Positions 42,990 through 63,876 of a stretch of DNA of 64,000 nucleotides are shown here, piece by piece. Under the pieces are notes generated by a model. It saw only the letters and a program-made list of their open reading frames with translations. It was not told the origin of the DNA and ran no database searches. The first letter of the stretch is position 1. Each line of letters begins with the position of its first letter. The DNA comes from Loigolactobacillus binensis. GTDB taxonomy: Bacteria; Bacillota; Bacilli; Lactobacillales; Lactobacillaceae. Both the position numbers and the translations under genes were made by a program. The stretch is from contig NZ_BJDN01000002.1 of the NCBI RefSeq assembly GCF_005405165.1, positions 1 to 64,000 of the forward strand. The letters run 5' to 3'.

Positions 42990-43263
42990 ATGACTTGAAA
43001 TTTAAGTAGAGGTATGGTTCAATTGGATTATTGAAGCAGAAAGATACCTGCAGTTAAACGAACTTTTCAGAGAGGCAAGGGTGCTGTAACTTGCTAAGCA
43101 ATTTAACTGCTGACCACTTTCCAAGCAACGCTATGTAATGTAGTGTCGGTTCGTTACCGTTAACAACGCTAATGAGGAAGTACATTTTAAGTGTGCTTCA
43201 AAACTGGGTGGAACCGCGAAATCATTCGTCCCTGAGGTCTATTTGATCTCAGGGACTTTTTTA
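42990..43263 (+). promoter_or_regulatory. T-box riboswitch, threonine
   Basis: Long leader with distal hairpin GGCAAGG...CTTGCT (43075-43095). The specifier loop reads G-ACC-A with ACC at 43113-43115 (Thr), placed as in known leaders (codon followed by A and CTT). The T-box is GGGTGGAACCGCG (43206-43218). The terminator GTCCCTGAG/CTCAGGGAC with six T residues ends at 43262. The leader responds to uncharged tRNA-Thr. Confidence 0.93.
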
Positions 43264-43295: not shown

Positions 43296-45251
43296 ATGGC
43301 AGAACTCAAGTTAACGTTCCCCGATGGTGCAGTCAAAAACTTCGCCGCGGGAACAACTGTTGCTGATGTGGCAAAATCAATCAGCACAAGTTTAGGTAAG
43401 AAAGCAATTGCTGGTAAATTAGACGGTCAATTGGTTGATCTGACTGCACCTTTAGCTAAAGATGGTCAAATCGAGATCGTTACCGCTAAGGATGAAGCAG
43501 GCCTGCAGGTGCTTTGGAACACTGCTAGCCTGGCCTTAGGTGCCGCTTTACACGATTTATTCCCAGCAATGACTTTTGGCGAACACGCTTTAACTGAGCA
43601 TGGCTTCTATTACGATACTGATAACGAAGCTAAGCCAGTTTCCGTAGATGATTTAGTCGCGATCAATGACCATTTGGCTAAGATCGTTGCTGATGGGGAT
43701 GCTATCGACCGCGAAGTCGTTTCTAAGGCTGACGCCCTGGCCAAGTTTGCCGCCGATCCTTATAAGACCAGCTTATTAAATGATTTAGCTGCTGATGAAG
43801 TTGTGCTTTATCATTTAGGCAGCTTCACCGACTTTGGTGAACAAGGGGTGCTACCAAACACAAAATTATTGAAAGTTTCTAAGTTATTATCCGTGGCCGG
43901 CGCTTATTGGCAAGGTAAATCTAGCAATAAGATGTTGCAACGGGTTTACGGCACCGCCTTCTTCAGTCAAAAGGAAATGACGGCTGACGATGCACGGCGC
44001 CAAGAGGCACACGATCGTGATCACCGGGTGATCGGTAATCAATTAGATCTGTTCTTCGTTGATCCTAAAGTTGGGGCGGGCTTACCTTACTGGATGCCAA
44101 AAGGAGCAACAATTCGGCGGACGATCGAACGTTATATCATCGACAAAGAAGTTGCCAACGGCTACCAGCATGTTTACACGCCCGTTTTAATGAACCTAAA
44201 TGCTTACAAGACGTCAGGTCATTGGGAACATTATCGTGAAGATATGTTTCCGCCAATGGATATGGGTGAAGGCGAACAATTAGAATTACGGCCAATGAAC
44301 TGCCCAAGTCATATTCAGATCTACAATCATCATATTCGTAGCTACCGGGAATTACCATTGCGGATCGCTGAATTAGGAATGATGCACCGTTACGAAAAAT
44401 CCGGCGCTTTATCCGGCTTACAGCGGGTACGGGAAATGACGTTAAACGATGGTCATACTTTCGTCACCTTGGATCAAATCGAGGACGAATTCAAAGCTAT
44501 TTTGAAATTGATGATCTCCGTTTACGCTGACTTCGACATCAGTGATTACTCCTTCCGGTTAAGCTATCGTGACCCTAACAATACCGCAAAGTATTTTGAC
44601 GATAACGAAATGTGGAACCGGGCACAAACCATGTTGAAAGCGGCGATGGACGATATGGGCTTAGATTATACTGAAGCAGAAGGTGAAGCGGCTTTCTATG
44701 GTCCTAAGTTGGATGTGCAAACCAAGACGGCTTTAGGTAATGAAGAAACTTTGTCGACGATCCAATTGGACTTTATGCTGCCGGAACGCTTCGATTTGAA
44801 GTATGTTGGTAGTGATGGTGAAGAACATCGGCCAGTCATGATCCACCGGGGACTAGTATCCACCATGGAACGGTTCACCGCTTATTTGACGGAAATGTAC
44901 AAAGGCGCCTTCCCAACTTGGTTGGCACCGATCCAAGCGGTGATCATTCCAGTTAAAAATGATCTGCATTTGGCCTATGCAAAACAGATCAAATCGCGGA
45001 TGGTCGCTCGCGGGTTACGAGTAGAAATTGATGATCGTAATGAAAAAATGGGTTATAAGATCCGTGAAGCACAGACGCAGAAGATTCCGTATACCTTAGT
45101 TCTTGGTGATGAGGAAATGACGCACGCCAGTGTTTCAGTTCGGCATTATGGTGAAGATAAAGGCATCGCTCAGGATGCTAATATTTACATTGATGCGATG
45201 GTCGCTGAAGTGGGCAACTACAGTCGCACCGGTAAATTAAAGGGTACCTAA
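43296..45251 (+). CDS. thrS: Threonyl-tRNA synthetase with a degenerate editing site
   Basis: 651 residues, full length. N-terminal TGS domain (1-62), second N-terminal domain (65-225), class II catalytic core (about 260-540) and anticodon-binding domain (545-651). The core is intact, with zinc ligands in RPMNCPSH (Cys336), NDGHTF (His387) and MIHRG. The editing domain is not: the HxxxH motif is W74-N-T-A-S78, and the DLCRGPH motif reads D-F-G-E-Q-G-V (179-185). All four residues that hydrolyse Ser-tRNA-Thr (His, His, Cys, His) are therefore gone. The T-box upstream controls it. AAGGAGG precedes ATG 43296. Confidence 0.96.
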
Positions 45252-63603: not shown

Positions 63604-63876
63604 TTGACGAAAACGCCGGTTATGTTAAAATATACCAAGAAAGACGTTGAGGGAAAATAGTACGTGTTAGGGCCAGCATAGAAAATCGTTTATTAGCTGC
63701 AAAAACGGTCACGATCTAGCACTGAATTCACTTCCGGAGTCGACTTTGGGCGTAAATACAAAAAAAGTTCCGGCACAGTCCGTTACCCTGTCTGAGTGTA
63801 TAAGTATTTATTTGCTTATGAACTAGGGTGGTAACGCGATGCCTCGTCCCTTGATTTTTGGGACGGGGCTTTTTTA
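63604..63876 (+). promoter_or_regulatory. T-box riboswitch, phenylalanine (pheS beyond the edge)
   Basis: Promoter TTGACG (63604-63609) and TAAAAT (63626-63631). Specifier loop reads GAA-TTC-A-CTTCC with TTC (63727-63729), the same layout as in glycine and other T-boxes, so the codon is Phe. T-box GGGTGGTAACGCG (63826-63838). Terminator GTCCC/GGGACG with six T at 63870-63875. The controlled gene, presumably pheS, lies right of the window; 63877-64000 shows no start yet. Confidence 0.93.

Follow-up and report, generated by a model that had tools for sequence, protein, structure and literature searches.

All four editing residues of E. coli threonyl-tRNA synthetase (ThrRS) are reported to be critical, with C182A and C182S abolishing editing and H73A and H186A lowering kcat 7000- and 70-fold, respectively (PMC4041444). 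Degenerate editing has been described for the ThrRS, PheRS and LeuRS of Mycoplasma, where the loss is not known to extend to three or more of them (PMC7373986), and the Mycoplasma ThrRS is a cytosolic bacterial enzyme with a degenerate, inactive editing domain (Li et al., 2011, cited in PMC7373986). The yeast mitochondrial ThrRS (MST1) is an organellar enzyme in which the editing domain is wholly absent; it edits pre-transfer at its synthetic site, yet Ser-tRNA(Thr) is formed in vitro (PMC4267643). Archaeal ThrRS lacking cis editing is assisted in trans by a partner protein, ThrRS-ed (PMC7373986), and in Anabaena the N2 editing of ThrRS T2 is degenerated, although its motifs are kept alongside an insertion, and T2 is covered by a second enzyme, T1 (PMC4787780).

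The window analysed here, a stretch of 64,000 nucleotides (C2:1-64000) of the Loigolactobacillus binensis assembly G000 (2.84 Mb, 97 contigs, 99.98% complete), encodes a ThrRS that has something in common with each of these systems. It is cytosolic and bacterial with a degenerate editing domain, as in Mycoplasma, and it appears to be without post-transfer editing, like MST1, and without editing in cis, like the archaeal enzyme. It differs from MST1 in possessing the domain, from archaeal ThrRS in that the archaeal editing domain (PF08915) is unmatched in the Loigolactobacillus genome, and from Anabaena T2 in that this genome was found to hold no second ThrRS. The closest solved structure by sequence, which was also at the top of the fold search, is that of S. 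aureus ThrRS (1NYQ/1NYR), which, unlike the window's enzyme, keeps HSTAH and DLCRGVH. Compared with Mycoplasma as described in that literature, the lactobacilli show a clade-wide loss fitting one event, with the domain at full length and predicted to be folded. Mycoplasmas are parasites with reduced genomes; the lactobacilli surveyed in this work have genome sizes of about 1.2-3.7 Mb.

The thrS gene and its editing site

The features of the gene, all on the forward strand, are as follows:

43030..43236, +, T-box leader 5' of thrS (87.5 bits, which falls below the Rfam gathering score of 93; E 8.6e-20; model positions 1-219 of 219)
43296..45251, +, thrS, encoding threonyl-tRNA synthetase (651 aa); no further copy was found in the genome
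43314..43484, +, TGS domain, residues 7-63 (Pfam)
43485..43970, +, residues 64-225, treated as the editing (N2/SAD) domain, with predicted fold kept and catalytic residues lost
43518..43532, +, N75-T-A-S-L79, counterpart of H73-x-x-x-H77 (alignment to E. coli ThrRS)
43830..43850, +, D179-F-G-E-Q-G-V185, counterpart of D-x-C182-R-G-P-H186 (alignment to E. coli ThrRS)
44271..44897, +, class II aminoacylation core (PF00587), residues 326-534 (Pfam)
44283..44285, +, E330, common to all Lactobacillaceae ThrRS compared; Val in 38 other Lactobacillales (column comparison)
44301..44303, +, C336, aligned to E. coli C334, zinc ligand and the single cysteine of the protein
44307..44309, +, S338, two residues past the zinc Cys, in all Lactobacillaceae compared; His in the 38 others, Gly in E. 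coli
44454..44456, +, H387, aligned to E. coli H385, zinc ligand
44844..44846, +, H517, aligned to E. coli H511, zinc ligand
44934..45155, +, anticodon-binding domain (PF03129), residues 547-620 (Pfam)

The TGS, class II core and anticodon domains all score above the Pfam cut-offs on one chain, and the tRNA_SAD (PF07973) match is weak (16.1 bits vs a cut-off of 24). Genes of the dnaB/dnaI type precede thrS, and infC and frames resembling rpmI and rplT follow it. Given the T-box leader and these neighbours, thrS has the appearance of a normal housekeeping gene under regulation. Its product shares 97% identity with the ThrRS of L. jiayinensis. The initial annotation had proposed searching for a second thrS and for a free-standing ThrRS editing domain. 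Across the whole assembly no further thrS was found, nor any stand-alone editing domain of the SAD or the archaeal ThrRS kind; the window's ThrRS, on this evidence the sole ThrRS of the cell, should charge tRNA(Thr). A second T-box leader (100.5 bits, 63638-63854, +) is located near the window end and probably serves pheST just past it, and a PheRS beta editing domain was located at C2:65795.

In the alignment with Lactobacillales relatives, H73, H77, C182 and H186 of E. coli K-12 correspond to N75, L79, G181 and V185 of the window's ThrRS. The canonical motifs HxxxH and D-x-C-R-G-x-H are absent and none of the four catalytic residues is present, which agrees with the initial annotation that every editing-site residue is replaced. 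Its placement of the second motif (D-F-G-E-Q-G-V at 179-185) also agrees with the alignment, and C336, H387 and H517 are in place, as expected from its claim of intact zinc ligands; its first motif, W74-N-T-A-S78, was one residue off, W74 aligning to the Arg that precedes H73. It had further considered that the residues might lie elsewhere in the domain. The aligned sequence and the list of Cys and His positions give C336 as the only cysteine of the protein, so the editing cysteine has not moved within the domain, and this candidate was rejected. A sequencing error or pseudogene was also ruled out: the open frame is of normal length, the four replacements are identical in all seven Loigolactobacillus congeners fetched, and the canonical set occurs in none of 80 named loci (the 80 best of 592 matches to the window protein, a sample biased to lactobacilli), which argues against both chance and error. 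The loss of cis post-transfer editing in this enzyme appears well supported on the sequence evidence, with the reservation that catalytic roles inferred from E. coli may not transfer to lactobacilli.

The N2/SAD domain, which had been described as full length, is present and is predicted still to fold. The AlphaFold model has pLDDT values of 81-95 per 10-residue block over residues 61-200 and lower values beyond, and its superposition on 1tje, the N-terminal domains of the E. coli enzyme, spans 222 columns at a TM score of 0.86 and an rmsd of 2.4 A; the model is poor across the catalytic domain, and its TM score against complete ThrRS chains is no better than about 0.40. For the editing domain, dN/dS lies at 0.017-0.047 in Loigolactobacillus (four of six pairs unsaturated, three of these four values lying on near-saturated synonymous sites) and 0.035-0.057 in intact relatives (four of seven pairs unsaturated), most of these values being rough. 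The domain remains under purifying selection, with relaxation not visible at genus scale. Since dN/dS is not raised at this scale, the domain may have a residual or different function.

Distribution and history in the Lactobacillaceae

The loss of cis editing read by the initial annotation is well supported; apart from the motif register, the part that did not stand was its presentation of the loss as striking in one free-living lactobacillus. The loss is a trait of the clade, shared by nearly every lactobacillus examined. From a sample of 100 genomes of relatives, the tetrad was read at positions 75/79/181/185 in 61 Lactobacillaceae genomes (62 genes), leaving out L008 (a duplicate of L001) and matches below 300 bits such as the G081 fragment. 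The canonical tetrad is missing in 60 of the 61 genomes. At least three of the four editing residues are lost in 51 genes, the window's included, while ten genes have H-H-D-L and a single genome (G026) has H-H-C-H. The 80 named loci all fall in the first of these groups. Outside the family, H-H-C-H was present in all 38 complete genes, which represent eight other Lactobacillales families, and also in a fragment from a 39th genome. Identical sequences were removed before columns were compared among 121 lost, 10 HHDL and 38 outside sequences. The commonest residues of the 121 lost sequences are N/Q at 75, F/L/Q at 79, G/S at 181 and V/Q/L at 185, with His at 75 retained in six. In genome G048 thrS is duplicated, and the editing residues are missing from either copy.

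A wider survey scored 397 Lactobacillaceae genomes using a profile (A2) built from editing domains that are intact, with groups counted by eye. Five genomes, all of one genus (g20), scored 276-279 bits, 69 scored 214-253 bits and 321 scored 199 bits or less; two were without a match (assemblies 65% and 87% complete). The tetrad was read in 50 of these genomes, namely the 30 best and 20 picked from the lower-scoring ones listed, and was HHCH in 5/5 of g20, HHDL in 25/25 of the middle group and lost in 20/20 of the low group. G026, G025 and G008 had been read previously, and pooling of both readings gives 33 of the 69 middle-group genomes read, all HHDL. We take the HHDL branch to be Leuconostoc/Weissella-like and g20 to be perhaps Periweissella.

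A survey of the class covered 398 genomes, for which at least 90% completeness was requested, 395 of them outside Lactobacillaceae; it relied mostly on scores only and, as no Mollicutes were identified in it, had no positive control. Scores of E <= 1.1e-62 were obtained for 391 of the 395. The low scores of the exceptions (G121, G173, G256 and G172) may be draft gaps or real losses; three of them have well-scoring members in the same family and G256 has none. Judged from these sequences, the loss of ThrRS editing seems to be old and fixed in the lactobacillus clade. In genera g3 and g6 the alignment of ThrRS (L137 and L143 of G048, L140 of G009, L159 of G012, L172 of G051) with the window protein does not begin until about residue 44-53 and four of the five frames are 600-618 aa, so their TGS domain appears to be shortened or diverged.

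The main tree is a quick LG+G4 reconstruction with SH-aLRT support, computed for the catalytic plus anticodon domains of 166 rows after removal of duplicate catalytic-domain sequences and of L204, a second copy of G026. In it the Lactobacillaceae are a single clade (99, starred). A Leuconostoc/Weissella-like clade (96, starred) holds the HHDL rows and the intact G026, and the lactobacilli form one clade of 117 rows, all lost (SH-aLRT 96, starred). An editing-domain tree without the four sites makes g20 the sister group of the HHDL sequences (98, starred, for the two together; HHDL 86); it was built without repeats, L276, L291 and rows with more than 40 gaps, only six lost rows were added, and a long-branch warning applies to these. 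Unlike this tree, the catalytic-domain tree pairs G026 with G025, one HHDL row (89, unstarred), so that the branching within the clade, and whether HHDL had one or two origins, is unsure. Horizontal replacement of the editing domain as the source of the intact site of g20 is disfavoured, as g20 is sister to HHDL and bears E330 and S338. The simplest history would start from an ancestor with the site intact, which was lost completely once at the base of the lactobacilli and underwent C->D plus H->L in the other branch; the trees suggest a single ancient complete loss of ThrRS editing at that base.

Domain rates were taken as branch lengths on a fixed tree, with other Lactobacillales represented by 32 rows and f4 left out. 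The editing/catalytic rate ratio reaches 3.75 in lactobacilli, against 1.16 for the Leuconostoc-like clade and 1.54 for other Lactobacillales; relative to the catalytic domain, the editing domain evolved about 2.4x faster in lactobacilli than in other Lactobacillales over the whole tree. The corresponding anticodon/catalytic ratios are 2.93, 2.55 and 3.09. The TGS rate is likewise up in lactobacilli (4.22 vs 1.89 and 2.61), so the acceleration extends beyond the editing domain. These ratios point to an N-terminal constraint that is relaxed in lactobacilli and unrelaxed in the HHDL clade, and with the constraint kept there, the H-H-D-L set may still work. The Leuconostoc/Weissella-like ThrRS (L150, L144, L277-L301) combine H-H-D-L with a conserved [DE]LD[RK]GGLVP and slow evolution, and H-H-D-L is possibly a working editing site of a new type.

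Other synthetases of the family were also inspected. The editing Cys of AlaRS (E. coli C666) is Asp in the source genome (EFDGGTHA; C8, L192), as in 14 of 42 Lactobacillaceae genomes read (source included; L205, L222-L241, L322-L361) vs 0 of 20 outside. The HxxxH and last His of AlaRS are retained, so the zinc site may survive the change. The IleRS of the source genome (C12, L216/L242) has the editing motif TTTPWTIPAS with GTGLVHTAPGLG. Replacement of the Asn, which we take to be an editing residue in E. coli, by Ser together with His->Leu/Phe/Tyr was seen in 27 of 32 Lactobacillaceae genes read, while Asn and His are kept in 16/16 outside; two of 20 loci (G098, G060) had no pattern match. The LeuRS, ValRS, PheRS and ProRS editing motifs of the source genome look ordinary by inspection.

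Explanations for the loss

The reading we favour, at a probability of roughly 0.78, is that the window encodes the sole ThrRS of the cell, with an N2 domain that folds but cannot hydrolyse Ser-tRNA(Thr), is kept for another role, and leaves errors that are tolerated. The enzyme would charge tRNA(Thr) and form some Ser-tRNA(Thr) without clearing it in cis, the domain presumably being retained for an architectural or tRNA-handling role. How accurately Thr codons are translated would then depend on the zinc active site and on any pre-transfer hydrolysis of Ser-AMP. Leftover Ser-for-Thr errors may be tolerated because the substitution is mild and amino acids are plentiful in the habitat. An E. coli strain with ThrRS C182A is reported to grow as the wild type, 42 degrees included (PMC6918089), and this together with the yeast mitochondrial enzyme makes tolerance of lost editing plausible.

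One possible but unlikely alternative is that the synthetic site came to reject serine so well that editing was no longer needed, with V330E and H338S perhaps tightening Thr recognition or pre-transfer hydrolysis. The two positions flank the zinc ligand C336, and among the columns with at least 95% conservation in the outside sequences no others in the catalytic core are replaced in every member of the family. E330 and S338 were found in all 121 distinct lost sequences, all 10 HHDL sequences, the intact G026 and all 30 wider-survey sequences covering the region (27 from genomes new to the comparison); the 38 others have V and H. Increased synthetic-site selectivity has been reported for human mitochondrial LeuRS (PMC4267643), but the same source has MST1, with its domain absent, still making Ser-tRNA(Thr). 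Further points against this alternative are that E. coli has Gly at 338 yet edits, so the position is variable among editing enzymes, and that g20 carries both residues while keeping its editing residues; the substrate contact is also putative. By the trees, E330 and S338 would have arisen on the family stem, ahead of the editing loss. They might have made editing dispensable or, equally, be plain lineage markers.

It is similarly doubtful that a free-standing YbaK/INS protein or other deacylase clears Ser-tRNA(Thr) in trans. ProXp-ST1 and ProXp-ST2, of the INS superfamily, deacylate Ser- and Thr-tRNAs, tRNA(Thr) included (PMC11295145), which makes such a role conceivable for the three free-standing YbaK/INS-type proteins (L212-L214; 155-187 aa) that match PF04073 in the source genome besides the INS domain of ProRS. 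L213 is close to YbaK (141.5 bits vs an NCBIfam cut-off of 153.25); L212 and L214 fall far below this cut-off and no NCBIfam model fits them better. Matches to PF04073, tallied by eye with ProRS included, number 2-5 per genome in the window's genus (mean 3.0, 8 genomes), above the family mean, but across the family the counts are flat, at a mean of 2.4 in 61 Lactobacillaceae vs 2.3 in 39 editing-competent relatives. As for dedicated editors, PF07973 at E <= 1 matched in the source genome an 899-aa frame, which is AlaRS by its motifs, weakly the window's ThrRS and nothing further, and PF08915 had no match; a free-standing protein with either domain (ThrRS-ed, AlaX) was not found in this genome. 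Some relatives, for example G005 and G007 of the window's genus, have a third PF07973 match.

Lactobacilli are catalase-poor, peroxide-making bacteria, and streptococci make peroxide too. A scenario can be drawn, improbable in our estimate and somewhat more so than the two above, in which E330/S338 on the stem gave a single-sieve ThrRS and the lactobacilli then dropped a peroxide-sensitive Cys, the HHDL branch perhaps still hydrolysing and the AlaRS Cys-to-Asp change following the same trend. Streptococci would then be expected to lose the Cys, yet none of the 38 genes outside the family has done so, and G026 combines the AlaRS Asp with an intact ThrRS Cys. Least credible is hydrolysis by the lactobacillar domain through a rebuilt catalytic set: the purifying selection and predicted fold described above, and the H-H-D-L set maintained in its slowly evolving clade, would suit it, but the four sites of lactobacilli have no conserved residue (mostly N/Q, F/L/Q/A, G/S/A/E and V/Q/L/I) and 32 of 69 editing-domain columns conserved outside the family are retained in less than 50% of lactobacilli.

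Novelty and significance

No report of ThrRS editing loss in lactobacilli was found by title or abstract in the open-access literature, most subscription papers being outside this coverage, and the mention of Lactobacillus found in PMC6765224 is a FemX reference. Natural loss of ThrRS editing is already known; as far as we have seen, the clade-wide case of the lactobacilli and the H-H-D-L set are new. ThrRS editing has been described as general in bacteria, with natural losses known in mycoplasmas and yeast mitochondria.

A clade with the loss beside an intact genus and an H-H-D-L clade is a natural experiment on the worth of proofreading, and the same setting informs how a dead domain stays conserved. 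Lactobacilli, which are of importance in food fermentation, as probiotics and in the gut, may synthesise their proteins with this check missing. The prediction for them would be a measurable level of Ser in place of Thr, chiefly where serine exceeds threonine, or else a compensation that has so far gone unrecognised.
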